Assembly (NCBI GenBank): GCA_020086605.1
Contig: JACBWW010000017.1
Coordinates: forward strand, 6,360,907 to 6,424,906
Length of the DNA: 64,000 nucleotides
DNA from: Lanius collurio
Lineage: Eukaryota; Chordata; Aves; Passeriformes; Laniidae
Direction of reading: 5' to 3'
How positions within the stretch are numbered: position 1 is the stretch's first letter; each line of letters begins with the position of its first letter. Shown one piece after another: positions 22,492 through 63,817 of this stretch. The notes below the pieces were generated by a model. It made no database searches. It saw only the letters and a list, made by a program, of their open reading frames with translations, and had not been told where the DNA came from. The position numbers were made by a program, and so were the translations under genes.

Positions 22492-22637
22492 TGCCAGCAG
22501 ACAGAAAACATGGAAAAAGCCGAGAAGCTGAGGCCAGCTCAGTCCTTCCCTTCTCTGTGCCATTCTCCAAGGAGCAATCCAGAGCTCAGGGCAGTTCTTC
22601 TGAGGAAAGCTGTGTCTGTCTCAGAACTGGTTGCCAG
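22492..22637 (+). CDS. Exon A: first recognised exon, start codon at 22,510
   Basis: A strong acceptor (pyrimidine-rich 'ctttgctctcttgtttcag') precedes it and a CAG|GTGGGT donor follows. The first ATG in frame is at 22,510; six codons before it (22,492-22,509) are also open, so an upstream coding exon cannot be excluded. It encodes about 43 residues ending in SVSELVAR, with the last codon split (AG|G, phase 2). The encoded end resembles the N-terminal IVEIFSKYQ segment of EPLIN. Confidence 0.65.
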
Positions 22638-25600
22638 GTGGGTGTTTAGTCTGTGGCTGCAGCTCACCTCAGATCTGAGGGGTTCCAGGGAGAACTCTCC
22701 CTCTCCCACCTCTGTAACAAACAGCTCTCACTCAGATAAGACCTTTCCCAAACACAGGGGAAAATTGCCAGGTCTCAAGTGAGAGGTGGGTGTTTTTTGC
22801 CACCAGTGCTCCTATCTGTTATAGATTTCCAGTGCATGATTATGTCTTGGAAGACAAGTCCTGATTTAAAATCCAGGTACACTCGACAATCTTCACTAAA
22901 TAAAATGACACAGAGGAATTTGCTCGACCCCAAGGACTGGAGCATTCCCTGATGGACAATTAAAGCTTTTAATCTTGGTAGTTTGTAAGGTGCCACAAGG
23001 GAGAGGAGCAAATACTGGAGAGATGAGCTGATGGGAAAGAAAGAGGGGTATGGGCACTGCATCCCCTCCTGGTTTCTCTCAACTGTCTCTCATCAAAAGG
23101 CTCCAGGGAGAGTCACATTTCAGGCCAAGCCTCTTAAGGGCTGATTCCTCTTCTTGTTACACCCCATAACTGAGGTCAGACCAAAACATTGCCAAGCGTG
23201 AGACGAATAAGATTAGGAACAGAACCCAAAGTACATCTCCCTCCATGTAAGAGAGACAGAGCAGCTGTCAAGTCTGTCTCTTGAACTTCCCCGTGGGACA
23301 GTTTCATTCCAAATATCCCAAATTGGTTAGTTTCCACTGTAAATAGCCATCTCTCTGCCAGGGTCTCTGGAGAAAGCTGAGTATGCACTCCCCAGAGTAT
23401 GGAACAGAAGGAAGGTGGTTTCTTCTGCAAAAGTCTCACTCATCACTGGTGTTATATTAGGTTATATTGGTAAATCCCTTTACATTAGGTTAAAGCTGAA
23501 TAAATTGAGCTTCTGGAAAGCCTGACTTCATCTCCAATCTATAAATCAGCAAAGTGCAGTAATACACCTCGTTCAGGCAATGTAAACACATTCCCCACCA
23601 GTGGGGACATAGATGCTCCAGGGACACATCTGCATGGAGCTTGGGAGGAGAGGGCTCACACTGCATCTGGCAGTACTGCCCCGAGCTAAAATCAGTCCTC
23701 TTTGAGAGATTTCTCACATTTCTGTCACTCTTCAAGATTGCCTTTGGAGTCTATTGACTTTGATATTTTCCAGAGGGTGGTGGAAGGCAGAATCAGCCTG
23801 TTCACAGTAAGCAAAAATATATTCAGGCTGAAAAGGGACTGAGGTGCCATCTCCTGTCTTCTCTGCAGGTACCAGCGCATCCTGAATGGTGAAAGAAACA
23901 TGACCAAGCAAGAGCATCCGAAGGTGAGAGCCAAAGGCTCAGAGCTGTTGGTGTGGGTTGTCCTCACAACACAATGCTCCAGTTCCTGTCAATGGGAGAC
24001 AAACAAAAACCCAGCATTTTCTACTGTAACTGGTGCTGTTCTGAGGACACCCCAGCACAGCTCAGACCCAGTTGCCTCTTAGTATGTACAGATGCACTGA
24101 CAAACATAAGATGCTCCAGGATGGAAATTTCATATATAATATTCCAATTGCTATAGAGGGAAAAAAAATGTGGAAGTAGAACCTAATGGAAGACCATCAA
24201 AAATTAAGGACTTGGCAGAGGATGTAGTGCTGGCTTGAAAGTGAGGGAAGGATCCAGCCTGAGGTAAAAGGTGCACAAAGTCATTAAAGCACCCAAAGAG
24301 CCACACTGGGCTGGCAGGGATGGCACTGGGGCATCTCTGCCCTCCTGCACCACCAGCTTGAGGTTTTTTGGTGTTGCCCTGTGTGTCTCAAATTAAGTGA
24401 TTTCTGTCATCCTACCCTGCCATTCTAGCACTGGCTTGGTGCTTTTGACTATAATGGGACTTGGATGTGAAGTTCATTAGTAGATTTTGCTCACTGCTCA
24501 TTTAGGTGTCTGCATCTCAGCATCTTAAATGGAATCCCCCCAGCCAGAAGCTGTGACTGCTGTTGTCACATCATGGCAAAGGGGCACCTCCCACCTGCCA
24601 ATGTCCCTCATCTCCAGATTACAAGCTCATTGGCATAGTGTGCAGTTCTCAGCTCTGTGTTTGCTCATATGACCCTGCTTTGTGATAAGGGGCCTCTTAC
24701 AACCTGGAATAAAAAAGATAAGATAACACTCCAGAAGCCAGATACTCTGGACTTTATCCAGCTTTTCTGCAAAAGAAGGGGTTGATTCCCACTGACCACA
24801 GAAAGATGAATTCCATCTAATTAAAACAAAAGGCAGAATCTGAGAACTTTTATCCAGGTTTCTAAGAAGAAACTGGAGGTTTCCTATGAAATGATAGAAG
24901 GACAGGTGTTTCCAACTGTTTGGGAACACATTTTCAGTAGACTAAGAGGATGGAGATGGGAATAAAGTAATGATACAAGAGGGAAGACAACCACTGGCTA
25001 TATTTTTTCTACTCCAAAGCTTCCTTGCAGGCTCATGGACAAGTCAGGAGGGTTCACTGGAAACAGGCAAGATAGAAACTTCAACACTTCAAAAACAAAC
25101 TAAAGTTTAAATTGCATCCTTGACATTCATTTCAGAGACCATAGAAAGCAGTGGGATACTCCTTCATTCCACAAAGTTAGAAAATAACAGATGTGATGCT
25201 TGAAGTAGAAGAAATTAGAAGAAAAATAAAAATTTCACATGATTTATCATTGAAATTCTGTAAGAACTTATTTCGATGTTTTGGCTGGTTTGGTTTTTTT
25301 TGTAGTTCATGGAATCAAGATATCCATCACAGAACAATGTCATTCCAGTGGGGAAAGACCATGCCTTACCTCGAAGACATCCCTGTGATATGTGCTCAAG
25401 CAAGCCCTTGGAGGGTGTTCCCATCCCTAAGATTGGCGCTCCAGCAAGGAATTTCAGAGGACTCCCAACCAGCTCTGACACCCCTAAAACCACCCCCCAC
25501 TTTAAGAGTTCACACAGTGTCCCACTGAAGGCATCATCTCCCAAAGGCTCTTTGAGGAAGAGGGAGGTTGATCATGCCAGCATCCTGACAACGATCCAGC

Positions 25601-28600
25601 CCCTGAGCATGGAGAGCAAACCCCCCAGAGACCCAGCCTTCCTCTCCCCTCTCCAGAGCATCCAGAGGAAGGCACAATGCAGACCTGCCACTACCACATG
25701 GAGGGAATCTGCTGCAAAGGTCAGTAGGTGCACTCATTCAAAAGGCCCTGGAAATATATTTTACCCTTATAAATTCCTGGACTTTGTGGTGGTGCTTCAT
25801 CACCCACTGATGCTAATCCCTAGGCACAGGGAACAGGCTTCCCTGTGGATGTTTATGCCTAGTGCCACCCAGCTCTGGCTGATTTAGTGGCACCAGAGGT
25901 AAGGTGCTCCACAAACCATTCCTTGTGATGATCCTTTTCCTAGAGGGAAGGACTTGGTAGGAATGGGCAGCCTAGAGAAAGACCTACATCAAGGGAACAT
26001 GGGAAATTGTACCAACCATGTTGATACCATCTGGAATATATATTTTTTGTGGATAAGATCCTATCAGAAATTATCATGTTCCTCTCTTTGCTGTTGATAT
26101 CAGTCCACATGAGGGACTGGTCTTTCACTGGGAGTGCAGAAAAGGGCAACACCCATTGCTGCTGGGTCTGAGACACAAAAATCATTGTGGGAGTTGGTAA
26201 AGGAAATGGATGGATAATCCTGACTCTGAAAGGTGGCCTCAAAATCAAAGATGGGTAGGGGAAATACCATTTAGCTCTGGAAATGAGGTGTAGCATCAAA
26301 AACTGTGAAGCACAGCCCTTGGACAGAACAGAGCAAAGCCAAGGCTGGGTCCTGGCTGAAAAAGAAAACACCTTTGCCTCTGGAAAACCTCTGGTGCTGT
26401 CACTTTCCCCACACCAGGCATTTGAGCAGTTTCTCTCCTCTATTTGTGGGTGCTTACCTGTTTCCCTGCTGTTGTTCCCACACAGGAAGGGAAGCAGTCC
26501 CGGGACAGGCAGGGGATCATCTCCTCGGTGCCAGACACAGCCGATGACTCAGCCACGGGCAGAAGCTGTGAGTCGGGGTTATTTTGGTTGCCAGGCATCA
26601 TTGCTACCCTCCTTCCACCTCTATAGCTGCAGCTGGGAAGGCGCTGCTTGGTCCTTACACGGAGCTGTGCTTCCCACAGAACCCCGCAGCAGACACTGAT
26701 TGGGTGATGCTGGCTGGGGACATGTGGGTCCTGCCAGGACTGGACCTTCGGGAATGTGGCCAAGGATAGGGAGCACAGAGAGCAGACAACCCCTTGACTG
26801 CAGCCCTGATCAGTCCCACTACACAGAGCTGGCAAATCCCTGCACAGCTGGGATCTGGGCCAGTGAGGAGTCCACAGAGCCAGGCCGGCTCTCCCTGTGC
26901 TCTTATCCCAGCAGTTAAAAATAGCTGCTATTAAATACCAAGGCAGAAATACATCCATGTTTAGTTTGGGACTAGTAATATCTCTCTGCACCTCAGCCTT
27001 GAGGAGAGGATGAGGGAGAGGTTCCTTTGTACCTGACTAAGGAGCCTTGGCTGGGCTCCTTTTTGAATTTGGCAGCAGCCGTATGTCAGAGAGAGTCATC
27101 CTTGGCTTAAGATAGAGCATGTAAGTGATCCCTAATGTTATGATATCATCGGGACTAAAGCAGGTCAGGAATATTTCAAGGCAAGAGGCATCTGTCAAGA
27201 TTTGAATGGGAAAGGGTTGAATTCTGCCAAACTTTGCTGTTTGAATTGGGGCAGAAAAAAACAGGTCTCCAAAAATCCCATAATGACTGGATTAGAGACC
27301 ACTGGACCATCCCACGATTTTTGTCCCTGAATCAGGAATCCAGGGTCTCCTTAAACCATGGATTTAGGATTTGTTCTTTTTCCTTTCCATTTCTTTCTTG
27401 CCTGTCACATAAGAAAGAGAAAAAGGATCACATGCTGCCTGGATTTGAGACCTTGTATTTAATTATCCAGCTGCATGGGAAAAGAAGTCTCTTACAGGAG
27501 CACACAAATGATGGAGCTGAGGTTTCCACAGCATTGTTGAGATTATTTTTTTCTTAGTATCAGAGCACATGATGTCACCAGACTATCTAGCTCAACACTG
27601 TCACAGTGTTGTGTGCCTTTCCCAGCGCCTGGAACGTCTTTCCCTCTGGCTGGTGAGGGGTGAATCATGGCCTATCTTGGAGCCTTACAGCACTCCCCAG
27701 CCCCTGACTCAAAGGCCTTGTAATAGCCACGGCTTCGTGTGGTCGTGCTTCATTGGAAGGGCTTTGTGTGAGGTCCTTCTGGGGAGGTAATTCCATCCAG
27801 GGAGCTGGGACAGCTACTGCTGAGGTAGGTGCTGGGTTTGCTCAGAGACAGGAGTTGTAATGCTTCTGAAAAAAGTCCAGGAACCAGCTGTCCAAAATTT
27901 CTCAGGGATCAGACACATCCAAAGCTGTACCTGTGCTGTTTTCCATCATTCCCATGGAGTGAGAGAGATGGTGGTGGTCCACGAGCCCCAGCAGTGTCCA
28001 GGGCAGATCTTCTATGGGAGCCTCCTCACCATCCCACAGGGACAGCCCCACTGCCCTTCCTGAGGGATGAGGAGTGGACATCCAGACTTGGGATGGAGAA
28101 AGCACTATTGAGTGGTTTGAAGCCACACATTAATGTAAGTTAAGCACAGACCACAGTTCTCAGGGGCTGGGATGTCTGACATGGAAGACAACAGCATGGC
28201 AGTGTTCAAGACAGCTCTGCTGACTGGAGTTGGGTTTATCAGCAAACACACGTCAGTTTGGAGCTGAATAATGGCAAAAAAAGCCAAAGCACTGGTGGCT
28301 GCATCTCTTTCCAGGCACAGCATAGTCCCACCTGAGACACTGCTGCAGGTCTGAGCATTGCTCAAACTGGATGGCTGCTACACCCCTGAGAAAAGTACAT
28401 TCCCAGGCAGCCAAACCAGCTGGGCCATGTCCCAGGTCATGCTGGTGATATCAGATGATCCAGAGGAAGCTGCCACCAAAGACGTCACAAAGTCACTAAT
28501 TAAAGAGGTCCAAGTAGCTGTAGTCTGCAGTAATGAGATTAAACTGGGCACTGAAGATTTACACAGCAGAACAAAATTCTTCCTATGAAGGAAGATGGCA

Positions 28601-31600: not shown

Positions 31601-34600
31601 ACAGGGACTGCTGGTACTGGCACAGCCAACCCGCATCTTTCATTGCCATGGGGTGATGTTCTCAAACACACACTCTCTAAAGGTGTTAGAGAAGCAAACC
31701 AAAGAGAAAGCAGCTGGGACCAGTTTGATATTACTGGATACATCAGTCACATTGGTATCCCAGCCTGCTAAAGGTGGACTCTCAAAATCATGCTCAGAGC
31801 CCTTGGTTATGTTTGCATTTGCAAATTAGCTTGGCCAGGCAGCAACCCCAGCTCTGGCATACAGTTTTACCCACCATTAACATGCTAAAAATGGACTTTG
31901 AGGACATCAAGAGCTCTCCACAGTTGAGTGTTTTATGATTATCCTTCTCCAAACATTTCCCAGAACAGAAGCAGATACCTGTGACACCACATTGCTGCAA
32001 GGATGGGAGCAATTCCCTGCTTACCATAAGGCAGGTAGAGTGGTTGTCCTTCTTTCAGTCACTTACTCAAAGTATTTTTTTTTTTCTTGGTTCTAAAATA
32101 CTGGAATTGATGAGGAAATAGGGCACCAGAAAATGTAGGTAATCCCTGTCACCTTCCCAGCTTTTCTCTTACAACTTTGGCTGTGGCCAGAGGTGACGGG
32201 GGCCTGGCTGTGTGGGTCACAGCCTGAGGACATGACAGTGAGTCAGGGAAATGCCTCTTCCCCATTGCACCATTGCCTGGATGCATCCCCTGTCCCGTAC
32301 CACGTTACACCAGGGGTATTTTGAATGAATAAATTCTGAAAGTAAGCCAGGGCTCCAGCCTTTCCCAACCCCTGTGCAGGATTCCTGGGACTCATGATTG
32401 ACTCAGCCTGATGGAAGAGCAATTTCACTGTTCCCTAAAAATAGACCAAGTGGTTCATCCTCTCAACATAGCCCAGCACTCTGAGATAAAACCAGCTGCC
32501 TTCACTGGGAGGCAGTGAACAGGACCGAGGGTGTGGGGTGTGGAGCAGGGCTCCTTTTGGGATATTCGAAGGGCTGCCTGGCCCTGGGTTTCACACAGAT
32601 TTTCCACCGGGGCTATCTGAGACACGACTCATCTGTTGGGACTACAGAGACCTCCCTGTAAGTAATTTTGGGTTAGATTAGAGCAGGGTGAAGGGCTGCA
32701 TGAATATGAACCTCAGACTCATCCTAAAATGCAGGGCAAAGGAGAATGCTTAGTGTTTCATGCTATGGAAGCAGTGCTGCAGCTCATGAAAAGCCATGGA
32801 TTTTATTCTGCTGGCCCAGAGCTTGGTAAATCCCACTCTGTGCTGCAGAGGGTGTTCCATGTGTGGTGGCTTTGGTTTGGTTCAAGACCATGGTTTGGAG
32901 CACCTGGGCATGTTCTAGCCAGAAACAGAGCATTGTACCTGTGTGCTTTTCCTCTACCCTGAAATACCAAAGTTCACAGCTTTGAGGCTGAAATTCATGG
33001 GGTTTCAGTGTCTACTCTCTCCCAAAAAAACCCACTGTTATTTACCATGACTCTGGTCACTCTGAGCACAAAAAGGGGAAACAATCTGTATGGGATTCAG
33101 TTGAGCCAGAGGGATGCTGGGGGTGGAGGGGGCACCTTCCAGACCCAAACTGTGCTCAGGACTGGTAATGGGTAGACAGCAAAACATAGATTGTTCAGAA
33201 GGAAATGAGCTTTGCTTGATCTTAAATCCTTAGGGAACAGGAGGCCGGGAAGGACTAATTAAAGAGGGAATTTCTTTCCTTGTCTCTTCAATCCCGATCC
33301 CCAGAGAGGGTTGAGAAATGTGTTTGTGATCCTGAGCCAAACGAAGGGCTTCAGGAGCCTGTGGGGTCAGCAGCATTAATATGGCCATACCTCACTGCCT
33401 ATTTGTGCTCACATGTGTGGAAGGACACTCCATAAACCTGTGTCACTCTAAGACGGAGCAGAGATGTGTCCCTGTGTGTGCATGAGTGTGTCTCACACCT
33501 GATTGTCCATTTGCCTTTTGGTTCTAAGGGCTGTCTTGTGGTCACCAGGAGGGCCAGGATTGCAGGTCCAGCCCTGGGGCTGCCCCTCAGTCGCTGTGGG
33601 AAGGGTCTGACGTGAGCTGAAAGCAGTGGTTTTTTCAGCTCATGCATTTGTCAATGGCTGATATTTCCTTCTAAGACACATCCTTCTGATGGCTGTGAGA
33701 ATAACAGAAATTCTGTAGCTTTCCCCAGTTCCTTCCAGGTCTCTAGTTTTCACCCAGATCTTTTTATTAAAAAAAAAAAATGTGAAGTAGCTTCAGATTT
33801 TTGTTAGAAAACAGGGATTTAGGGAAAGAGAGGTGGAGTTGACCTTCTTTCCCTATGCCTCAGGTACAGATGTCATTTCATGAGAAGAGGCAAAATATAA
33901 AAATCCATATTCTTGTCCAGGCAAAGTGGTAGATGATTCACTAGTGGCAATTAAGGGATTCAGCATGGGTGGAAATTTGTAGGAACATCTTACAAAGGCT
34001 GTTTTCAGCCCTTGAACAGACTCAGTATTTTTTAGGATACAAACACTTCCTTTTGGGGGAAACCAGGCAAGGATGCCCTAAACCAGTTACAAGGAGAGAG
34101 AAAATCCTTCTTTAGCACCGGTGAAAGTCCCAGGTCTGGGTCTGAACAGAGTAGTAGGAATCTTTTCTTGAAGTCCTGTACCTTGCTGGTACCTTACTCT
34201 TTCAAGCCAACCATTTCTCTCCTCTCCCATATTCTCACTGGCAGAAACAAATGGAAATTCCCAGGAATCTCAGTAGCTACAAGTGGGTTTGTGGTTTTCT
34301 CTTTAAAGGATACAGCTAATTTGGTTTGGGGTGTGACACTTAAGTCCAAAACAGTATTAAGTTTTCTTGGCTGCTGGTGATAAAGAGCCGACAGCAGCAT
34401 GGAAACACCAGGACAAGAATAGAAAGCCAAGGCACGGCCTTGCAGCTCCTCAGGTCGTGTGGCATCCCTGCAATGCCCCCACGTAAACACCATGGCATGG
34501 CAAAGAAATGCCTGGAGATGCACACCACAGCCTGATCCCAGCTGGGCCCTGCATCCCAGGCAGGATGGGAGGCTGGGGATGCTGAAAGGGCTCGTGCCTG

Positions 34601-52600: not shown

Positions 52601-55600
52601 GAAAGGCAGCTTTTCGGAATACCGCTCCCTGAATGTCCCCAGCCCACAAAATCCACGGAGGCAGAAAAGCATCTTGGAGTTGCAGACAGGGCCTGATGGG
52701 TCCAAGCTCTACGGAGCCACCCGGACTGTGATGGAGCAGTATGAGGAAATGGACCAGTTTGGGAACAAAATCATCACTTCATCCACCACAGTCACCAAGC
52801 AATCTGAGACACAAACATCTTCCACGTGCGATGTGGTTTCTCATCCCCAGTATGAGGTATCTGCTTCACCTGTGTTTCGGAGGTACCTGAAGAGCCCAGG
52901 TGAAGACTTCCACACCAACGGGACTTTTCAGGAGCCAGGAGTGGTCTTTGTCACCTTTGGCAACTCCAAGCCAAAGAAATAGGAGATTCTGGATAGCAAG
53001 AGAGGACTGTATAAGACAAAAGAGAAAGGCCACGACAAACATTTCTCCTGTTTTATCTACATTACACACAGGGATTTGCCTACACCCTAAGGACTTCTCA
53101 GGGTCATCATCTTGGTGTTTGCATACAGACAGGACAAATGCAGCCTGCTTTGACACTGGAGAACAGCCCTCCCCTGGCCAGCCCAATAGACTTGGTGCTG
53201 CACCATAACCCAGAGTCCTGGCACTGTTAGAAGCACAAGGGAAAAATCCATCCATGGGCACCTTAGGGTACTTCCCCCCAGAAATTTTCCTAGGGGCAGT
53301 TGGAGGTGTTGGATCAGGCTTCTCTGAACCACTGCAGAAGGAAGGATAGGTAGGATCAATTAAAGAACCAATCAATCTGGTCATTGGCAAACAAACACCT
53401 TTATGGTACCTTCTTTTTCCAAGAAGGGCATCCTACACACACACATATACATACACAAGTTAATATTGATGGGTGGGTTGGATAGATTTTCTCTTAGCCA
53501 ATAAGAAAAGAAAAAGAAAAAAAAATATTGAATTGATGTCACTCTTGGACTTGGGGGAGTTATTTATCAGTTTGTTTTTCAGTTCCTGGAAAGTGTTTGA
53601 TGATACTGGAAATTGTAAAGGCAAGACCTACAGCTACTATCAATGCCATTCCCCCAAAGAAATATGCTATGAAAGATTCTTGAGTCAGAATGGTTACTGC
53701 TTTCTCTTCTTTATTTCTAGAATTGTAATTTATTATTCAGTATACATGAATCTCTTATTTTAGATTTTCCATGCTTTCCTACATGTTTACTGTTTAAATT
53801 CATTTTGAGAATTTGTAAAGCAATTTTTCTTATTATTATGACTTGTTTTGTACGTTCTCAACTCAAGATTTTAGATATTTTGTGGCTTTTTTTTTTTTTA
53901 ACTTCTATTGCTGCGTTCTGATGGTAAACATTACCTCTAAAAATACTTTGGTCTGGTAGAGTTTCTTTCATTCTGTGCTTGTTGCCTTTCAAAGTGCCTA
54001 GAAATTATATCTTGATGGACCAGTTGAATGAGGGCACTCTGCATCACTGGAGGGGTTTGGTCTACATCTTCTTTAGAATATGGGTGGATCATCAGCCCTT
54101 CGGCAAAGAGTATTCATACTCTTACCTGAAAAATGGGCCCAGGATGATACAGAACCAGGACTCTGTGTAGGAGTGTGGAGCCTGGGCAGGATGTTTACAT
54201 CAGGAATGGTCCGGACACTTGTGTGTACCCATTTTCCCCATGGGAGAAGGCAGCTGAGGTGTTGTGCCTCTACAAGTCTGACGAGGAGGAGCAGCTGATG
54301 ACCCAGCCCTTACTGCTGTGCCTCAACTCGCCTCACACTCGGCTCAGGGATGGGTGGGTGAGCAAGGAGTTTGCTCCAGGTGTGGGGGAATGTCAGGAGC
54401 CTATGGAGGGACGGGATGGCTTCTCACAGAATTACAGAATATCCTGAGTTGGAAGGGACCTCAAGGACCATTGAGTCCAGCCCTGGGCCCTGCACAAGAA
54501 ATCTCAAAAAATCCCTCCATGTGGCTGAGAGCATTGTCCAAACACTTCTTGAGCTCAGGCTGGTGCTGTGACCACTTCCGTGGGAGCCTGTTCAGTGCCC
54601 AACCACCCCCTGGGTGAAGAACCATTTTCTAATATCCAGCCTAAACCCCCCCAGACATAGCTTCAGGCCATTCCCTCAGGTCCTGTTGCTGGTCACAGAG
54701 ATTGGCACGTGCCCCTCCACTTCCCCTCATGAGGAAGTTGAAGACCATAATGAGGTCTCCCCTCAGTCTCCTCTTCTCCAGGCTGAACAGACCAAGTGCC
54801 CTCAGCCACTCCTCATGCCTCAAGGCCCTTCATCATCTTTGTTGCCCTCCTTTGGACACTCTCTAATAGTTTAATGTCCTTCTTTCATTGTGGTGACCAA
54901 AACTGCACACAGGACTTGAGGTGAGGCTGTGGAGCTGTGTCCTACAGCCTAGCTCAGACTGTAGACCTTCTCATTGAACTATAGCCAGCCAGCTCATCTC
55001 TAAGTGCATCACTTTATCTTTCTGAGAATAGGACAGTAAACTCAGTGAAAAAAAAAACAAAAAAAACCACCAAAAAATCAGTAATTTGCTATGATTAATG
55101 TTTGCGTTTTTCCTCTGAGGAAAAGAAGCCCACACTAATGAATTAGGAGCAGGACACTGGAGAGGAAGGGACTGTTCAGAGTCTACCAGTCCACACCCCT
55201 GAGCTCATAGCAAGGTTTCTAAATATCAATTGTCATCTTGCATCGCAAAGACCTTGTTCAAGGTGTTCTAGACCATACTGGAGTCCTGCTTCCTCCCCAA
55301 AAAAGATATACATACCCAGACCTCATTGGTTTACATCTAGAACCCCATAAATTTAAAAGACATGCCAAAAAGAAGAATAGGAACAAAATTTTCAGTTGCA
55401 CACTGAAGGCTGAGCTGGAAGAGCAGATCAAAATAAACTGAGCATATCTATTTTCAGGCAATCGAAATAAAATAACCACTTAGACCCTCCCAATTCCTCT
55501 AGTAGGAACCACTGCAGAAATAAGGGAGAGTTAGTTATCTGGAGACCTTCTTCAAAATTTTTTCAACACTCCTTTCTTAGCCCTGTTTGGTTCCATCTCA

Positions 55601-58600: not shown

Positions 58601-61600
58601 ACATAAAGAGGTGTTTGAGAAATCAGGTCGTGGCACACAACACAATCCAGACAGTAAACATTGTAGAGTAACACCAGATTCACGGAGCTGTGGAAGCTTT
58701 ATGCTGATATGAGCTGCCTTTCCAGGGTTTGGACTATGTGTCTGTGTGAGCAGCCATAAGATACCAGTGATTCCAAGAGCTCACAGAGTTTTTGAGTCAC
58801 AGCAACATTTCTCCCCTTACTCAAGGTTTTTAAATTATTCAACTGAATGAATCATTTACTCTCAATCAAATGAACATATTTTTTTCTCATCAGAGATCCG
58901 AGTGTTCTGTCTTTCTTTTCTGACTGAAAATGAGCACTGACCCCTCCAAGCTGACAGGTAAACTGAACCAGACAAGAATCTGAACTCGCACAACAGATCT
59001 GCAAAAAATAAAACCAAGAAAACGCAACACAAGCAGGAGATTCAGTAAATTACCTTGCAGATGCACTTCCAGGTGGCCGTGATTCAGTTATTTAACCTCA
59101 GTCTCTCCTTCTTCAGCCCATGTTGAAAGAAATGTGTGCCTCCTGCCTGAAGCCTGTCTACCCCATGGAGTGTGTGGTCACTGACAAGGTCTGTGTGCAT
59201 CGCTCATGTTTCTGCTGTCAGGTCTGCAGGAGGAAGCTGAGGTGAGTGGTAGGATGCAAGTGCATTTATTACTAAGGGATGCCCAAGTAGTTTCCATCTA
59301 AATTGCCCTAGGGTAATTCTGAGAGAGCAGGACTCAGGAAATGAGAAAAAAGGGCATGCAGTTTCCCTGTTTCCATCTGCCTCTCCATCACCAGAGGCTA
59401 AAATCTGCTCACCTCAAGATTGCAGATCCCTGTGGATTAGGAATCTGCATGAATGGTGGTGCAAGGGTGAGCTGAAACTACAATAAATATTTACAGTTTG
59501 GGAATACTGATAGGGAATGTAACTGGAGGAGCCATTAGGGTGCTTCCTATGGTCATAGAAACATAGACTCATGAAGGTTGGAAAAGGCCTCTAAGGCCAT
59601 TGAGTCCAACCATTTACCCAACACTCTCCACCACTAAATCGTGTCCCCAAGCATCACATTGAGTCAGGTAGGTTGGAAGGCACCTCTAGAGGTATCCACC
59701 CAGCCTTCTGCAGGCCCAAGGAGAGCAGGAGCTCAGGAACACATTCAGGAGAGGTGTGAATGGCTTCAAGGATGGGGGTTACACAGCCTTTCAGCTGGGG
59801 CCTCTCTTTGAACATCTAACCACCAGTGAAAATGGTTTTTCTTGCATCTCATCATAATTCCCTGTGTTATAAGTTTTTCCCATCACCTCTAATTCTGTCA
59901 CTGCCCCCCTCCAAGAGCACTCCAGCCCTGTCTTCTCTATAACTTCCCATAAAATAGACACACACAGCAGTGAGTTTCTCCTTCTTAACCTTCTCCTGGT
60001 AGGACCTGGCCAACTCATCTCTCAGCCTCTCCTCAGATGACATAGGTCACTCACACTTTGGTGGCTTTTTGCTGAATTCCTTGCTGTGAGGAGCCCAAAA
60101 CTGGACAAAGTACTTCACATGGCATTCTACAAAAGTCAGGTATAGAGGAACATTCACTTCTCTTGGCCATGCAGCTCAGGATGTAGTTGGCTTCCCTGTC
60201 ACCAGGGCACAATGCTGACTTGTTTTCAGCTTGTCAGTCGCTGAGACAGCCACCTCCTGTGAGGCTGCTTGGAATCCTGTTGCCCCCAGCTCTGCAGACA
60301 CTTCCTCCCATCTTGCAGTTGTTATATCATGGGAGCCCTGGGCACTTTTACCCATAAGGTCCACACTTGTGCATACAGGGGCAGAGATGAAGTACTGGTA
60401 TGAAGCCTAGCCTGTAAATGAGAAAGGGATTGCACATAACCTGGGCTACAGTCCCCAGAGGCATTGCAAGGAAATGTTTAATTTTTCATGCGTTTTGATG
60501 TTTGAAAGAAAAATCAAACATATTCTGAGAAAGCCAGTACTACTTTTGAAAGGTTTCATTCTTCAACCTGTTCCCTTCCTTCCCCACTGAAAAATGATTT
60601 TGCTGAAAGCCTGTCCATCAGTGCTCCCCTCCCACACAACCACTGACAGCTGTGCCAATGTGTGTTTTCCAGCTTGCAAAACTATGCTGCCCTCCACGGG
60701 ATGTTTTACTGCCAAGTCCACTACAAGCTGATGGCTGGGGCTGGATGCAGAAGTGAGATGGAAAGGCTGGAGCACCACCAGGTTCAGCATGGACCACAGC
60801 CCTGGGATTGGTGTAACAGGGCCAAAAAGACTGCAACAAGAGAGACATCCGCATCCTTCAATGCACAGTGTGATCTGCAGCTGGCTGAGCACAGGAATAG
60901 CAGGTTTGTTCTCTTAGGGAACAAGCTCAGAGCAGTCTGGCCACCTTCAGAACCAGCCTTTGCTGTCAATGGAAAAGCTGGTAATGGAGTGTGTTCCCAG
61001 AAAAAGCCTGCACTGAACCTGAAAACCTACCAGGCTGCAGGCAGCAGGGCAGGAAGGATGGTGCTCAGGGGTCAGGAGGGAGCAGGGGAGAACGGGAGAT
61101 TCTTACCTGGCATAACCGACACCAGGAAAAGAGAGCAAGTGTGTTCCTGGCCCAAGAACAGAGAGCAGAGAGGCAATGAAGAGACTGGGTATGGGGATGT
61201 GCCTGAAAGGAAGCAAGGGGGGAAGGTGTCCCAGCGAGTGGCTGCAATCCAGCAGGGCCAAGCCCAGCTGAAGAGAGGACCTGCCTGTGCCTCCCTCCCT
61301 TCTGTCCTGGAGCCTGTGAAACCCCTGCCTCGTGGCTCACTTGCTCCCCACCCCACATGCCAAAGCACTAAACCCACCTTGTGGATAGACCTGGAGGGCA
61401 CAGGTGGCTGCATTCTTGCTGACACAGAGGTCCCAGTGACACAAAACAAGGTCTGTGGGTCTCTGAGCACACCCAGCAAAGGAGGCACAATGACAGGCAA
61501 GTCTGAACTGACTGTAGCCACCCCAGATACTGCGCTGGTCAAGCATCGCCTTGGAGAGGGAATGAACAGCACACAGACCATTTGTGTGCTAGAAGAGCCT

Positions 61601-63817
61601 GAAACCAGAAACACCACAAGTACAGAGCTAAAATGTGTAGCTGAGGGTGTTGATTCCCCTGAAAATGAAGCTGAAGAAGCCCATTCCCCCTCTGGTGTGT
61701 TAAGGACCACTTCTGTATCTTCTGGGTCCCTGGAGCCAGGAGGGCTGAGTGTGTCACCTGAGATCACTGAAATGCTGAATGAGAAATCAAAGGCAAACAC
61801 CAGAGAGTTTCCTGGGAAACAGATGCCAGTAACTTTGGGGGAAGCTATGCAACCATCCAGCAGAAGAGATTTGCCTGGAACTGAGAGCAAAGGGGCAGAA
61901 TTTGAGAAGACAAAAGAAGAGAAACCAGTAAGTGTGTCAGGGTCTCTGGAAGAGCCCAGTCCTGAGCACACCTCTCAGGAAAATGAAGCTGAAAAGAGCA
62001 GAGTCTCTTCACCTGGTTCTCCAGACAGGACAGATGATAACCATGTGCCCTCTTTACAAGAAACAGAACCTCAGAACACATGTGGCCCACTGAAAACTAT
62101 CAGTCATGAGGGTATTTGGAGACATGATATGAAATCACCTTGCGAGGGTTTTCCAGTATCAACAGACATTCCTCTGAAAGGATCTTTTGCCACTTGCCCC
62201 TCACATGATGAAGTCAACAACTCCAAGTCAAAGGATTCTAGGGAAGTTCTTAGTGAAAACACCTCACACATTTCTGAGCAACCAGCCAAGACATCGGAAT
62301 ATTCCAAACCAAATATATCCTTGGACAAATCTGGAGGCCATCCAGTAGGTGAAGAGAAGTTGGATCTGAAACTCCCAGAGGAAAGCACTGTGCCTATGTC
62401 ACAGACTGCTGCTCAGAGCAAGGAGGCCAGAAACAGCCAAGCCTGTAGAGAGACATCAGGTAAAGGTTTCAGGCTTGGGAAAAACCCTTTCATTACCCTT
62501 TTTGGCTCTGAAGACAAAGGCAGAGCTCTCAAGAAAGAAACAATAACCCAGAGGAAACCCACAAAGCCCCAGTCAGCCCTTGCCACTTTGTTTGGTCACT
62601 CCTCAGAGAAGAAGCAGAATCCACAAAAAAACCCTGCAGGATCCTCAGAACAAGCAAATACTGATGGCAGAACAGAAAAGGCACAGGGCCTCCTCACCTC
62701 CTCCAGCCAAGCAAAGCAAAAGGCTTCCAAGAATGATCACCTCCCTCAGCCTGGAAAGACAGAGGTGTTCCCTAGACATATCCAGGAGAGCTCTGGAGGA
62801 TTCTCAGGCACTACTGAGGGCAAGGAGATTGATGTCCTGTTGTTAGCTCCTGGCACAAGCATGTCACACGATGATAAACCTGAGAGAACTGAATTTGACA
62901 TTCATGACCAAGAGTTTTTAGATAGTCAAGTTTGGCAGCAACAGGACAGCTGTTGGCCCCCTCTTGTGCCAGCACAGGAAAATCAGAAAGAAGCTGCAGG
63001 AATCTCAAATCATGGAACAAACCCTCTACAGCCTCCTCCAGAGATTATGCCTGTAGCAGACAACAGTGAAAATCTCACCAGGGGAGGGAATCACCATGAT
63101 GCTCATCTGCCAGAAACCCAGAACCTGTTGAGCTTGGATGTCCAGAGCACAGTGGCACAGGATGGGATATTGTTTTCACCAGGCAATTCAGACAAGTCAC
63201 CCAAGGAGGCTGAGCTTCAGTTCAGCAACATGGATTTTCTGGGAGACAGTAACTTGTTCTTTTCTAGAGGACAAGATTTCCCCAGCATAGCAAGAAAAAC
63301 TCCAGATTTGCAAAACTCAGAGGCAGAAACTCCACCTTTCTTTGATCCAAATCCTTCAGATTCATTCCAGGAAATCTCATCAGAAACAAATGCCTCACTA
63401 GAGCTGTGGGATACCACCAGCCTCTCGCTTCTCGATGGGCAGGATGAGATGAATATTAGAGACCTAGAAGGGACTCAGAGCTGTGAACTCCTGCTGCAGT
63501 TGGATCCACAGTGCCAGGCTCCAAAGGCAGCAGAAGAAATGTTTGGAATGGGTCTCACTGCTGAAGGCTCTACAAAAATGTATCTCCCTACGCAGGATGA
63601 CAATTTTCCCTTAACATACATGTTCAGCAGTTGTGCTTCTGAAACCTCTAATCAGGGTGTCTTTGATGTTGATTCAGCCAAAACGGGCCAGGAGGCTTCT
63701 GAAAAAATGAACAGGAGCAGAAAAACATCAGGAGCTGAGGAGGATGATGACAGTCTGTCTTCCGAAGACTTGGAGATGTTAAATTATGACCTTTCAGAGA
63801 AGGAGTTCTTTATATAG
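22510..63817 (+). CDS. EPLIN/XIRP2-like LIM-domain protein, eight coding exons flanking the Xin mega-exon (spliced product 1,385 aa)
   Basis: Exons A 22,510-22,637, B 23,869-23,923, C 25,306-25,719, D 26,486-26,567, E 42,279-42,433, F 43,659-43,712, G 59,117-59,241 and H 60,673-63,817 join in one open frame; every junction has AG/GT borders and matching phase. Residues 1-296 are basic, Pro/Ser-rich and look disordered, with two EPLIN-like segments: [17 protein letters not shown] at the A/B junction (compare EPLIN IVEIFSKYQ) and [16 protein letters not shown] in E (compare EPLIN SIKDRMAKYQAAV). Residues 303-354 form one complete LIM domain. About 70 residues later [11 protein letters not shown] (near 427) matches the KLR-WPP segment after the LIM domain of EPLIN and XIRP2. 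The rest of the tail is acidic, Ser/Thr-rich and unrecognised. By family, an actin-associated scaffold is likely. The XIRP1 exon lies in its F-G intron, as in XIRP2. The 5' end is not established; the frame is open back to the exon A acceptor. Confidence 0.72.
23869..23923 (+). CDS. Exon B of the LIM-protein gene
   Basis: A 55-nt exon between 'tcttctctgcag' and GTGAGA. Its first G completes the Arg codon begun in exon A. It then reads [18 protein letters not shown] and ends in phase 0. The Y-Q that follows the junction is the conserved feature shared with EPLIN (SKYQ) and XIRP2 (ARYQ). Confidence 0.68.
25306..25719 (+). CDS. Exon C of the LIM-protein gene
   Basis: A 414-nt exon of 138 codons, phase 0 at both ends, between 'tttttttgtag' and an AAAG|GTCAGT donor. 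It starts [11 protein letters not shown] and ends WRESAAK. The peptide is basic and rich in Pro, Ser and Lys, with no recognised domain. A long open frame (25,309-25,887) covers it on this strand, with no stop before the donor. Confidence 0.65.
26486..26567 (+). CDS. Exon D of the LIM-protein gene
   Basis: An 82-nt exon between 'tgttgttcccacacag' and GCT|GTGAGT. It reads [17 protein letters not shown] then [10 protein letters not shown] and ends in phase 1. Its length matters: exon C ends in phase 0 and exon E begins by completing a codon with two bases (T|GT), so an exon of this phase is needed to connect them. Confidence 0.58.
28981..29036. repeat. (ATTCT)n microsatellite, about 11 copies
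   Basis: A perfect pentanucleotide array lies between a C-rich stretch and unique sequence. Its length is likely to vary between individuals. Confidence 0.95.
29229..29243 (-). promoter_or_regulatory. Weaker candidate CTCF-binding site in a CpG-rich patch
   Basis: tgccatctagcgacc resembles the variant CTCF core CCACTAGATGGCA read on the - strand, with two departures. It lies in a local CpG-rich stretch (about 29,190-29,420) that contrasts with the surrounding CpG-poor intron. Motif evidence only. Confidence 0.35.
31255..31534 (+). mobile_element. CR1 LINE fragment, 3' end
   Basis: Sense-orientation CR1 tail: 'acatgggcacatagca', 'gagagacttagattagatg', 'aaattctttactcagagg', 'ccatccctggaagagttcaa', 'gtcccttccaacccaaacca'. 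The copy is 5'-truncated and its terminal octamer is decayed. Confidence 0.9.
32435..32444. promoter_or_regulatory. Canonical MEF2 site, with GATA and E-box motifs nearby
   Basis: CTAAAAATAG matches the MEF2 consensus exactly. Within about 70 bp downstream are a GATA motif (gagataaa) and a CAGCTG E-box (ccagctgcc). That set is typical of heart and skeletal-muscle enhancers, and Xin has been described as a MEF2C-dependent heart gene in chick. Function here is inferred from motifs and location only. Confidence 0.35.
35725..35734. promoter_or_regulatory. MEF2 consensus site in an AT-rich block
   Basis: CTATAATTAG fits YTA(A/T)4TAR. It sits in an AT-rich block (about 35,690-35,830) with several TAAT homeodomain-type cores, about 2.3 kb before the candidate XIRP1 promoter. 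In AT-rich DNA such matches also arise by chance. Confidence 0.3.
37950..38159 (+). promoter_or_regulatory. Candidate XIRP1 promoter and non-coding first exon
   Basis: Three E-boxes (CAGCTG at 37,961 and 37,998; CATGTG at 38,008) precede a TATA/MEF2-like TTTTTTAATAG at 38,059-38,069. A CpG-containing stretch follows and ends in a good donor, CAACAG|GTGGGT, at 38,159/38,160. An untranslated exon of about 38,090-38,159 spliced to the XIRP1 acceptor at 45,299 would match the two-exon layout of human XIRP1. The start site is inferred from spacing, not observed. Confidence 0.38.
38780..39270. promoter_or_regulatory. CpG-rich block, possible alternative promoter
   Basis: CpG dinucleotides are clearly more frequent here than in surrounding DNA (for example 'gcgccgtcggccgcggtgcc' and 'gcggatgccaagcgcgccacg'). 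No TATA box or certain exon is visible. It may be a second promoter for XIRP1 or for transcripts starting at exon E. Confidence 0.3.
40301..40568 (+). mobile_element. CR1 LINE fragment, 3' end
   Basis: Sense-orientation CR1 tail with 'ttaaactgaaagaggagag', 'attaggaagaaattcttta', 'tggctgcccagagaaactgt' and a decayed end at 'accattctatgattt'. Confidence 0.92.
40818..40840. repeat. Poly(A) run
   Basis: An uninterrupted run of 23 A, not attached to a recognisable retroelement. Confidence 0.9.
42279..42433 (+). CDS. Exon E of the LIM-protein gene
   Basis: A 155-nt exon between 'ctgtccctgtttcag' and CCG|GTAAGG. Its first two bases (GT) complete the split Cys codon of exon D. It then reads [18 protein letters not shown] and on to [15 protein letters not shown], followed by six alanines (partly GCT repeats), ending in phase 0. 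The [15 protein letters not shown] segment corresponds in position and pattern to EPLIN SIKDRMAKYQAAV and XIRP2 MARYQAAVSRG. Confidence 0.68.
42434..43658 (+). other. Intron E-F with short dinucleotide repeats
   Basis: AT-rich intron with a CA-rich stretch near 42,652-42,690, a TA-rich stretch near 42,826-42,857 and oligo(T) near 43,248. I see no exon in it. Confidence 0.5.
43659..43712 (+). CDS. Exon F of the LIM-protein gene
   Basis: A 54-nt, phase 0-0 exon between 'cttcatatcttttccag' and AAG|GTAGGA. It reads [18 protein letters not shown]. Joined to exon G it gives [19 protein letters not shown], which aligns with EPLIN SPPKAMKKFQAPARETCVEC just before its LIM domain. Because it ends in phase 0, it could equally join the Xin exon at its initiator ATG. 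Confidence 0.65.
43713..45299 (+). other. Intron upstream of the Xin exon
   Basis: Its end is a convincing acceptor: a consensus branch point 'gctgac' about 24 nt before 'gtttccccaaag'. No further exon is recognised. The ATG at 45,267 lies inside this intron end. Confidence 0.55.
45300..52982 (+). CDS. XIRP1: Xin actin-binding repeat-containing protein 1 (Xin, CMYA1), 2,560 aa, single coding exon
   Basis: A muscle protein that binds and bundles F-actin through Xin repeats and sits at adherens junctions/intercalated discs and myotendinous junctions. The start is the ATG directly after a splice acceptor (45,299); an in-frame ATG at 45,267 lies in the intron. Residues 1-45 hold DDLPPPP and LPVPPPK (Mena/VASP-type proline motifs), then [20 protein letters not shown], nearly identical to human XIRP1. 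I count 27 Xin repeats (G-D-V-x6-W-L-F-E-T-Q-P-L-D) at about 107-1073; human XIRP1 has about 16. [20 protein letters not shown] with the following EEIQSNAV and RGISLEE segments separate it from XIRP2. Weaker GDV-x-T-I-x2-LL repeats follow. SH3-type proline clusters lie at about 1780-1842 ([20 protein letters not shown]), Lys/Glu-rich probable coiled coils at about 2095-2236, and [10 protein letters not shown] near 2480. Length fits what I recall for chicken Xin (about 2,560). Confidence 0.95.
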   Translation: MSEAQKSSKVAIKKMEDDLPPPPAIGSVQVIAPGGQDLNALPVPPPKQAFSKFYQQRQVNELKRLYRHMHPELRKNLEEAVTEDLAEMLNTEDPNAQASVNLDKVLPGEVQSMRWIFENWALDSIGDHQATKKLTEEEIIPSGDVKSTSLRFESQSVNGYNLSTSAKVSETDLARGDVRTARWLFETQPLDTLNKLYSDKTEVQEAVLKEPVQGGDVKGAKQLFEAQSLDAIGRCSSVEEKSILQLKSEIQELKGDVKKTVRLFQTEPLCAIRDKSGTIHEIKSVCREEIQSNAVRTARWLFETQPLDTINKDTSKVQIIRGISLEEIGRPDVSGARWIFETQPLDAIREITVEEQDFKASTDFVTGADVTKQRLLFETQTLDSLKGEASESVVTKEQVIGGDVKSTLWLFETQPMETLKDNFEVGRLKKVELSAEEKGDVKQRKHIFETCPLGSISKAFEEEIPATSMEEVVKGDVKSFKTLFETLPLDSIKQADAEPTTKEEEEKIPAGNVKANQILFETTPLYAIKDSFGNFHEVTSVSREQIISGDVKNYKWMFETRPLDQFDESIKKVDIIRGITKQEVVAGDVRTAKWLFETQPMDVIHLQATEGEKHPSVKREISQKGDVKTCRWLFETQPMHTLYEKAEKKQEEDGSVPQADVKSYTWMFETQPLDSLKGQEEQYLQVSKAYSQEELQGVDVKTVRHLFETEPLGSSTVSEADRKKIMRYSSRVEFQSGEVSRVKEFFEAKPLDTATKSKSQKDAGTIEAGSVHKFTWLFENYPMDTLKDNSEGIQEIPPEKNVKGEDVGGKRFIFETYSLDQIHDKVDETELQKIQKDTMNKANVKSCTMLFESQPLYVIQDKEGGYHEVTSVQKEEIMKGDMKGARWLFETKPLDQIKKEEEVFVIRAVTQEDIKKGDVQTARWRFETEPLDSFSGGKLSVPRTVDDVQKGDVQSNKQLFESQQVGQKKYVRMVSVSDVQRGDVRTSTWLFENHPVDSLYGDAERSPSMSTVQREDSQKGDVKRCTWLFETQPMDTLKDTEVTASAGAQEEIPHADVKSTTWLFESTPLDKFSASEGSIEIELKERTMKETLETLCTCQAIQHDGILIEANDMESVKMVKYQLSSPGAPEILKEEIVGGHLQRIMLQLLHRTNVEAQSVLVEEDREGKIKVSPLQLLDQSEAVKGKEDLSGDVAKALQGLLSQDASIKKGMVLQETKSGSVKMTLYSLLFHSVQQKVVKGDVKSTIGNLLASSQEQKAAATIKREDNEKGNVQLFASCIEKGDLSYLKNLQQESEIQSLISSQAEEGADDSGPRVMQGANIHILPNKEKVEKVIAGGEPGAMEGAKKGFVCESMGREGVLEKEAMHAAGGTCTTVQRLGKPLPTVMGKEEILSGGLKVTTKSIQRVADASKKAEKEEATTSHLKEPKTMMQGTFPSQVAAQRAEVDGKQQSVVTGEASQTQTEEKALGSDLQAAMQSLRLATAEAKNIQHHVQSKFQRNREEVHTACRQQTVSSQGTMTLQSTVHQQDSSSTKQESSSTATRTTTTRVQEASKTHTSMSQKSIASHKKVSASEEVQGGQLLSQEIQVVPSRDFSIKDGLYTATPVKTYINPCIESDYKEQSVQEERDVGVRGDVQTAIRALQSAATEQRLVEKEDVVRGNLKATLQSLEKSNVNVSRGDFKAAMIYRNAGQSYSVCKKKNETQLTSNETAVVASGSQADNDFPPPPSVAVMKAEHCPPSTKGAREGALLLPTCKDEAPGCSALLQTPLPALPPLSCKPSDQSPAEKPRTPPKPETTAPPRKKPVPPPKPEHLLHEAHSASANNSTNKSAKPVPPPLPPKPSGLREISKTKPSPTELGLSCMEIHEQIGYEEIQAKCCNLETSVKKSVTVQGINPERKLPKYTAKTPLQIAEERYKASKGGQGKVESDSAKTSKPMKNGVVGFEVKQGMMSDKAAAPRRCPGEVAQRQIELCQEENGHSSLSSPTCPGREQTQNVPGQTEPSTSPVGHTIPPKRGDGTAQNALSKVERESVSNSYGLWDSQKVMQQVHERRQMSHSMSFHQQSVNAFEEHQQGNSRQLKCPDREAETPAQEKPVVVMREKKKRETEDERRKRLSVHKEEIMKGNVKEAMEIFENLRRQEQLQEILNRVREFEEETSKVDVKALKSFFEKVPEWVVHQKAKQQDKAEAKEDADSVSSVDLVFEDLERASAEILHLKEQTLAHIQDIEEAIKKAIYAVSSLKSESDIAGLSGLFKESLGSTQSSVSSSNIRKISIVSSKAKQEEVMLETGETASVESAKVAEKAEAAKAELGVPRLIQSRVSSPSSPSYISIESAARKPAESPRTAHSPQDSPSPDCLDSPGKRDAFAQNSFSSFNHPSAGSAGHDTNPLEKRPDPIQTKAGMSSMKQHMLGNASHTTSDKEKCSLDTSKDSCHCGMKGSFSEYRSLNVPSPQNPRRQKSILELQTGPDGSKLYGATRTVMEQYEEMDQFGNKIITSSTTVTKQSETQTSSTCDVVSHPQYEVSASPVFRRYLKSPGEDFHTNGTFQEPGVVFVTFGNSKPKK
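52983..54424 (+). other. XIRP1 3' untranslated region and downstream DNA
   Basis: Follows the TAG stop. It becomes AT-rich from about 53,480 to 53,970, with many ATTTA-like and poly(T) stretches as in long 3' UTRs. I found no close, clear AATAAA in this part; the first ones I noticed are beyond 55.4 kb, so the cleavage site is not placed. Confidence 0.45.
54425..54935 (-). mobile_element. CR1 LINE fragment, antisense
   Basis: On the + strand it begins with the inverted CR1 end 'cacagaattacagaat' and 'gttggaagggacctcaagga', and continues through 'gaggtctcccctcagtctcc', 'ttctccaggctgaacagacc' and 'ccaaaactgcacacagga'. It is one of the longer copies here, about 0.5 kb. Confidence 0.93.
54936..56412 (+). 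other. Intron F-G sequence, no exon recognised
   Basis: CpG-poor sequence with A-rich patches and several AATAAA hexamers (for example 55,466-55,471), any of which could end XIRP1 transcripts. No coding exon is supported. Confidence 0.4.
56413..56838 (-). mobile_element. CR1 LINE fragment, antisense
   Basis: The + strand shows 'catggaatcacagaatta', 'gagtccaaccattatcccag', 'aaatccctccagggatggtg' and 'cagctgctcctcatcagcct', the inverted order of a CR1 3' region. Confidence 0.92.
57204..57213. promoter_or_regulatory. CArG box (SRF-type site) before the LIM exons
   Basis: CCATAAAAGG matches CC(A/T)6GG exactly. It is 1.9 kb before exon G, whose second codon is an ATG (59,120). A muscle promoter here would give a short protein starting just before the LIM domain. 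This is inference; no TATA box or start site is proven. Confidence 0.3.
57933..58105 (-). mobile_element. CR1 LINE fragment, antisense
   Basis: A short copy starting 'catagaaacagtcatagaat' on the + strand, then 'ggaagagaccttaaagatca', 'aacctggccttgaacacttc' and 'ggatggggaatgcacagctt'. Confidence 0.92.
59117..59241 (+). CDS. Exon G: first half of the LIM domain
   Basis: A 125-nt exon between 'gtctctccttcttcag' and CTGAG|GTGAGT, starting in phase 0 and ending in phase 2. It reads [19 protein letters not shown], then a short linker, then [14 protein letters not shown]. It carries the first six zinc ligands of the LIM domain: C-x2-C, H-x2-C and C-x2-C. KPVYPMEC matches the hallmark (K-x-VYPME) of the EPLIN/XIRP2 LIM domain. 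This exon was not predicted from long frames because it is only 41 codons. Confidence 0.85.
59552..60345 (-). mobile_element. CR1 LINE copy, antisense, possibly two fragments
   Basis: The + strand starts with 'tcatagaaacatagactcat' and 'ggaaaaggcctctaaggcca' (CR1 inverted 3' end). A second start-like segment lies near 59,666 ('caggtaggttggaaggcacc'). The copy runs through sequence matching inverted CR1, including 'cagctcaggatgtagttggc'. At about 0.8 kb it is the longest CR1 here, and it lies within the intron that splits the LIM domain. Confidence 0.88.
60673..63817 (+). CDS. Exon H: second half of the LIM domain and ~1,030-residue tail, terminal exon
   Basis: Starts after 'gtgttttccag' with a C that completes AG|C (Ser), giving [19 protein letters not shown], the second zinc half (C-x2-H) of the LIM domain. 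The frame then runs 3,145 nt to TAG at 63,815-63,817. The tail is hydrophilic and apparently disordered. Visible features are [11 protein letters not shown] (about 425-432), two similar motifs [13 protein letters not shown] (about 943) and [13 protein letters not shown] (about 974), and an acidic end [20 protein letters not shown]. The F-K-S-K-G-N-Y-D-E-G-F-G block that directly follows the LIM domain in EPLIN and XIRP2 is absent. An ATTAAA at 63,834-63,839 could serve as a poly(A) signal. Confidence 0.8.

Follow-up and report, generated by a model that had tools for sequence, protein, structure and literature searches.

Does the XIRP1 locus of the passerine bird Lanius collurio code for more than Xin repeats? 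XIRP1 has hitherto been treated as a single-exon muscle gene: the coding region of human XIRP1 is placed entirely in exon 2 (PMC13267782), in agreement with the statement of an earlier note on this DNA that human XIRP1 lacks LIM exons, and zebrafish xirp1 is coded by one large exon (PMC3280289). Searches by title or abstract and by passage, whose coverage is far from the whole literature, turned up no account of LIM exons at the XIRP1 locus. In mouse XIRP2, exon 7 is the Xin mega-exon, exon 8 carries the LIM domain and exon 9 the tail (PMC10259482). We analysed a window of 64,000 nucleotides, in which the earlier note had read eight + strand exons (A to H) joining in phase to a 1,385-residue frame with a LIM domain, laid out as in XIRP2, with the intact XIRP1 mega-exon in the intron between F and G.

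The eight exons are borne out by their frame and splice sites and by the Pfam LIM match. Spliced in silico, A to H give 4,158 nt, i.e. 1,386 codons with a single terminal stop and a product of 1,385 residues (Table 1), exon H by itself being open across 1,047 codons. All 15 splice sites of the set (8 acceptors, 7 donors) fall within the window's top 6% when ranked against its 5,537 AG and 3,035 GT dinucleotides on the + strand, by a consensus score with assumed frequencies. Since F ends in phase 0, its joins with G and with the mega-exon are both in frame. Exon E, which the earlier note had not placed, was chosen from 13 open, phase-compatible candidates of 155 nt; the one retained is flanked by good splice sites, as judged by eye at either end, and comes fourth in the blind scan described below.

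Table 1. Coding features read at the XIRP1 locus (positions in the window)
Feature	Position	Strand	Observations
Candidate alternative exon	21035-21128	+	joins B in phase instead of A; from blind scan and chain search; unproven
Exon A	22492-22637	+	first coding exon; ATG 22510 in the context AAAACATGG; 3' end in phase 2 (VA-R/YQ)
Exon B	23869-23923	+	55 nt, phase 2 to 0; begins YQ, as the 46-nt exon of LIMA1 does
Exon C	25306-25719	+	414 nt, phase 0-0; LIMA1 counterpart 393 nt, 0-0, without sequence similarity
Exon D	26486-26567	+	82 nt, phase 0-1; LIMA1 counterpart 109-112 nt, 0-1
Exon E	42279-42433	+	155 nt, phase 1-0; motif set beside LIMA1 SIKDRLAKYQAA and XIRP2 SFKERMAMYKAA, likeness not significant
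Exon F	43659-43712	+	54 nt, phase 0-0; in frame with G and with the mega-exon ATG
XIRP1 (Xin) mega-exon, coding part	45300-52982	+	2,560 aa + stop; Pfam Xin 3.4e-153
Exon G	59117-59241	+	first half of LIM domain; phase 0-2
Exon H	60673-63817	+	second half of LIM domain and tail of ~1,000 residues with KLRAVWPP; terminal stop

Most of these exons were also recovered by a blind scan for candidate internal exons of 45-500 nt, over 124 kb and on both strands, scored by splice consensus and by a codon table trained solely on the mega-exon and H, which were both excluded from the ranks. Exon B came first, E fourth, D fifth, C sixth and F seventh, each scoring best in its joining frame; the second and third places went to the candidate alternative exon of Table 1 and to a candidate in the left flank. 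A came only 17th, another frame scoring slightly higher, and a shorter version of G outscores the full-length one. Taken alone, the codon scores of A and G are weak. With a penalty of 12, a phase-consistent chain search, likewise blind, took B-C-D-E-F and the G acceptor on the + strand with a score of 43.1, the best chain on the - strand reaching 7.1; B to F contribute 24.5 of this score, and the remainder comes mostly from spurious upstream exons. With a penalty of 10 the scores were 82.0 (+) and 28.2 (-), the chain then adding spurious exons, of which three fall in the D-E intron and one in the F-G intron. At both penalties the candidate alternative exon precedes B in place of A, and it possibly serves as an alternative first coding exon. 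The comparison of codon usage in H between its reading frame and the other two was discarded as coding evidence, because stops weigh on the latter. The PDB matches of the LIM domain and the blind-scan ranks rule out A to H as chance open reading frames, and the exon set is confirmed as more than chance.

The mega-exon in the F-G intron is intact, as had been claimed: its one open frame counts 2,572 codons, 2,560 of them from the ATG given in Table 1, with Pfam Xin matches in 20 stretches and no match in NCBIfam. The frame is open back to 45264 and holds an extra in-frame ATG at 45270; the ATG at 45300 is not certain to be the start of XIRP1. Joined to F, the mega-exon is predicted to give 2,856 residues in frame, a fusion that is doubtful because the acceptor AG at 45298-45299 is mediocre, reaching the 87th percentile only. 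The long form of a XIRP2-type split gene continues into the LIM exon in a different frame. Here the mega-exon frame ends at an in-frame TAG at 52980, just upstream of which no donor was apparent by eye. A MEF2-like site (CTAAAAATAG, 32435-32444) is found in the D-E intron; it was dropped as a sign of an internal muscle promoter since, with 6 consensus matches on the + strand, it is no promoter evidence by itself. No adjoining gene was recognised from open frames within 60 kb on each side of the window, and the 3' end and the next gene are out of sight because the stretch just downstream (64001-108970) reads N.

We then compared the LIM domain coded by G and H with known ones. It matches Pfam LIM at 1.1e-5 (26 bits, cut-off 22.9) and, in the PDB, LIMD2 at 2.8e-21 and EPLIN at 3.6e-15, the next best match being at 3.1e-10, and all eight zinc-ligand positions are present. 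With an E threshold of 10, a genome-wide LIM search gave 25 matches, exons G and H being two of these, and four loci of the EPLIN kind: XIRP1 on the window contig (C17), XIRP2 (C14), LIMA1 (C130; 5e-44 against EPLIN in the PDB) and LIMD2 (C113; 7.1e-44 against LIMD2 in the PDB). The C14 locus is named XIRP2 from its LIM exon, which is like the mouse one printed in PMC10259482, from an SCN1A/2A/3A-like neighbour and from the human sequence. Within the genome, the XIRP1 LIM is 48% identical to that of LIMD2, 42% to XIRP2 and 39% to LIMA1, and an intron splits the domain at the same residue in all four paralogues (phase 2, AG/C). By the definition in PMC3305314, which lists human LIMA1, XIRP2 and LIMD2 as the EPLIN class, the LIM of G and H is of the EPLIN type. 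Immediately behind the LIM domain, three of the four paralogues (LIMA1, LIMD2 and XIRP2) keep the Eplin motif of 22 residues (LFKSKGNYDEGFG); XIRP1 does not. In exon H, unrelated sequence (60725-60811) stands where this motif would follow. The XIRP1 LIM product would therefore be of the same descent but, by definition, no member of the EPLIN class.

The layout agrees with XIRP2, as had been proposed. The intron that holds the mega-exon directly precedes the first LIM exon, this LIM exon starts in phase 0, and the LIM domain is split in phase 2. Mouse exon 8 begins AAACTG in phase 0 in the repair template printed in PMC10259482, as does the first LIM exon of XIRP2 in this genome; exon G starts in the same phase, three residues further in along the alignment.

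Upstream of the LIM domain, the comparison is with LIMA1. Its first coding exon, of which A is the counterpart, begins MEPSPFNRRQW and ends in phase 2, and is followed by exons of 46 nt (YQ start, phase 2 to 0), 393 nt (0 to 0), 109-112 nt (0 to 1) and 161 nt (with SIKDRLAKYQAA; 1 to 0), then by three exons of 105, 58 and 113 nt in the place that F occupies by itself in XIRP1, and by the LIM exons. The first five junction phases (2,0,0,1,0) are identical in the two genes, and the exon sizes run 46, 393, 109-112 and 161 against 55, 414, 82 and 155 in XIRP1; a rough post hoc estimate of chance, 0.007 for the phases and ~3e-6 for the sizes, rests on assumed phase and length distributions and serves as illustration only. 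An ungapped comparison anchored on the A-B intron gave p 0.013, the register being second-best of 31 offsets. No free local alignment with LIMA1 reached significance (p 0.06 for A+B, 0.12 for E, 0.95 for C, 0.84 for D and 0.42 for F), nor did that of E with XIRP2 (p 0.10), and the offset that aligns the motifs of E and LIMA1 is outside the four best for the whole exon. In the tail, KL(R/K)xxWPP is common to XIRP1, LIMA1 and XIRP2 by eye, and in BLAST, H hit XIRP2 through its LIM half (1.2e-4) and LIMA1 through a low-complexity stretch (7e-4, with composition adjustment switched off). Of the earlier claim of EPLIN-like flanks, the exon structure shared with LIMA1 stands; the sequence similarity of A to F is weak. 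Membership in the EPLIN class needs care, the Eplin motif being gone and the likeness of A to F to EPLIN being one of exon structure more than of sequence.

The neighbourhood identifies the locus. On the window contig, a CSRNP gene is found 0.27 Mb from exon A and the nearest sodium-channel-type exon, among the matches listed, ~0.4 Mb from it; the exon fetched matches SCN10A best, then SCN5A. Human XIRP1 is linked to SCN5A/SCN10A, and XIRP1 here has the orthologous position beside SCN5A/10A-like and CSRNP genes. The single-exon coding region of human XIRP1 is not found, since eight further coding exons surround the mega-exon if spliced as read. XIRP2 lies beside a CSRNP gene and sodium-channel exons, of which the one fetched is SCN2A/1A/3A-like, and LIMA1 beside an SCN8A-like exon, so that, among the matches listed, sodium-channel exons share a contig with three of the four EPLIN-kind genes (XIRP1, XIRP2 and LIMA1), two of these three contigs also carrying CSRNP genes. 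On the LIMD2 contig there is no sodium-channel exon among the 40 matches listed; further sodium-channel-like exons are found on a separate 103-kb contig (C178). Such linkage is the pattern of whole-genome duplicates, and the shared neighbourhood makes the window XIRP1 and not XIRP2. An XIRP2 mis-called as XIRP1 is ruled out, as the XIRP2-like LIM exons are on another contig and the sodium-channel exon on the window contig is of the 10/5-like type.

XIRP2 itself has lost its Xin mega-exon in this genome. In 34 kb around its LIM exons we found upstream exon candidates and an open tail and, between these candidates and the open LIM exons, a relic of 175 codons with 4 stops (C14:14229621-14230145), fragments of which resemble Xin repeats and, weakly, another 12-residue segment. 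The best match of the relic scores 40.0 bits (E 2.4e-5), against best scores of 20.4-26.2 bits in 20 shuffles and of 25.4-31.2 bits, outside the Xin repeats, in four other regions. Genome-wide at E up to 0.001, the XIRP1 Xin region matches itself only, and all 11 Xin-family matches at this threshold are inside it, in both cases among the best first-look candidates scored. The relic is the sole other Xin-like DNA found in the genome. The XIRP2 tail exon extends at least 522 residues from the LIM split and shows no stop up to where the piece read breaks off. A Xin relic in LIMA1 was considered and rejected, its best match (31.2 bits) involving a proline-rich portion of the query and lying on the opposite strand of the gene. 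That XIRP2 of this genome survives as a LIM gene with a decayed mega-exon is new. Chicken has been reported to lack Xin-beta (PMC2478706); at least for the genome studied here, that absence would become the loss of one exon, with the gene itself retained. In Table 3 of PMC6855842, which lists genes from single-cell RNA of the chicken utricle, LOC772075 is apparently paired with XIRP2; the pairing fits, as XIRP2 survives here as a LIM gene.

These observations are best described, with high confidence, by one joint reading: an EPLIN-type gene A to H with the Xin mega-exon in the intron right before its first LIM exon, as in XIRP2, which would yield two classes of transcripts and descend from an ancestral Xin/EPLIN gene. 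The first class would end in the mega-exon and code for the Xin-repeat XIRP1, either from its own ATG or as the A-F fusion. The second would skip the mega-exon and join F to G, a frame-compatible short form with an EPLIN-like N-terminus, one LIM domain and a long tail. The ancestral gene would have duplicated along with its sodium-channel neighbourhood, its descendants each keeping different parts. The exon phases shared with LIMA1, together with the paralogon, support a real XIRP1 locus that would have kept the ancestral EPLIN part; this portion of the earlier claim gains from them, and the portion on loss in mammals is narrowed to human. The likeliest function of the LIM product, by analogy with short XIRP2 or EPLIN, is that of an actin-associated scaffold, whose partner or target may differ because the Eplin motif kept by the three relatives is absent.

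Two nested genes would give a nearly identical picture: an EPLIN-like gene A to H and, in its intron, XIRP1 with its own promoter, a non-coding exon 1 and no exon in common. We hold this arrangement to be a serious contender, if somewhat short of an even chance. It agrees on A to H and differs from the joint reading only by excluding transcripts that join A-F to the mega-exon; the mega-exon's own ATG and stop and its mediocre acceptor are in its favour, as is human XIRP1 coded wholly in exon 2 (PMC13267782), whereas F, ending in phase 0, would join the mega-exon in frame and an N-terminal antibody detects both forms of mouse XIRP2 (PMC10259482). Decay of the EPLIN part, as a silenced remnant or a young pseudogene that is still open since its inactivation is recent, is improbable. 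The Eplin motif that XIRP2, LIMA1 and LIMD2 retain is indeed absent and A to F have diverged past clear similarity, but all 4,158 nt are open with every splice site in the top 6% and every zinc-ligand position present, in contrast to the stops in the XIRP2 relic of the same genome. Least probable is that an EPLIN copy came to surround XIRP1 secondarily in this lineage. Such a gain would spare the separate losses that ancestral retention needs, because the descriptions of XIRP1 in human (PMC13267782) and zebrafish (PMC3280289) include no LIM exons; but the LIM is not nearest to this genome's LIMA1, position and phase agree with XIRP2, and the sodium-channel/CSRNP neighbourhood recurs at paralogous loci.

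If the joint reading holds, the locus would show that the Xin and EPLIN parts belonged to a single gene before the split between XIRP1 and XIRP2, and LIMA1, XIRP2 and LIMD2 would be joined by a fourth lineage. It predicts a second LIM protein in birds besides short XIRP2, the stereocilia-repair protein. Tentatively, and at just under even confidence, we propose that the Xin genes of birds traded parts, XIRP2 becoming LIM-only and XIRP1 retaining the sole Xin repeats together with a diverged LIM protein, an undescribed actin-associated product; the four paralogues would have shared out the exons of one ancestral gene, different parts being kept in different vertebrate lineages.

Among known systems, LIMD2 has the LIM domain closest to that of XIRP1, by identity within the genome and as best PDB match, and is a small LIM-only protein, unlike the predicted product of 1,385 residues. 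Human XIRP1 (Xin-alpha, CMYA1) shares the Xin-repeat mega-exon and the linkage to SCN5A/SCN10A; no LIM form of it is described in the accessible part of PMC13267782, in contrast to the LIM exons found here. XIRP2 (Xin-beta, myomaxin), with its long form and its short LIM form, has the same order of Xin mega-exon, LIM exon and tail exon; it differs in that the XIRP1 mega-exon has its own stop and no donor by eye, in the loss of the Eplin motif from XIRP1, and in a tail that from the LIM split counts 1,047 residues in XIRP1 and at least 522 in XIRP2. According to PMC10259482, short XIRP2 is enriched at the cores of damaged stereocilia, and the isolated tail localises to strained stress fibres in fibroblasts, which neither the full-length protein nor the LIM domain alone does. 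EPLIN-class proteins bundle actin and tie it to cadherin-catenin complexes (PMC3305314). LIMA1/EPLIN itself keeps the Eplin motif, has two more exons before the LIM domain and gave no Xin-repeat match in the 23 kb read, unlike XIRP1, with which it shares the series of intron phases that starts at the first coding exon, the small second exon starting with YQ and, by eye, KLRxxWPP after the LIM domain.
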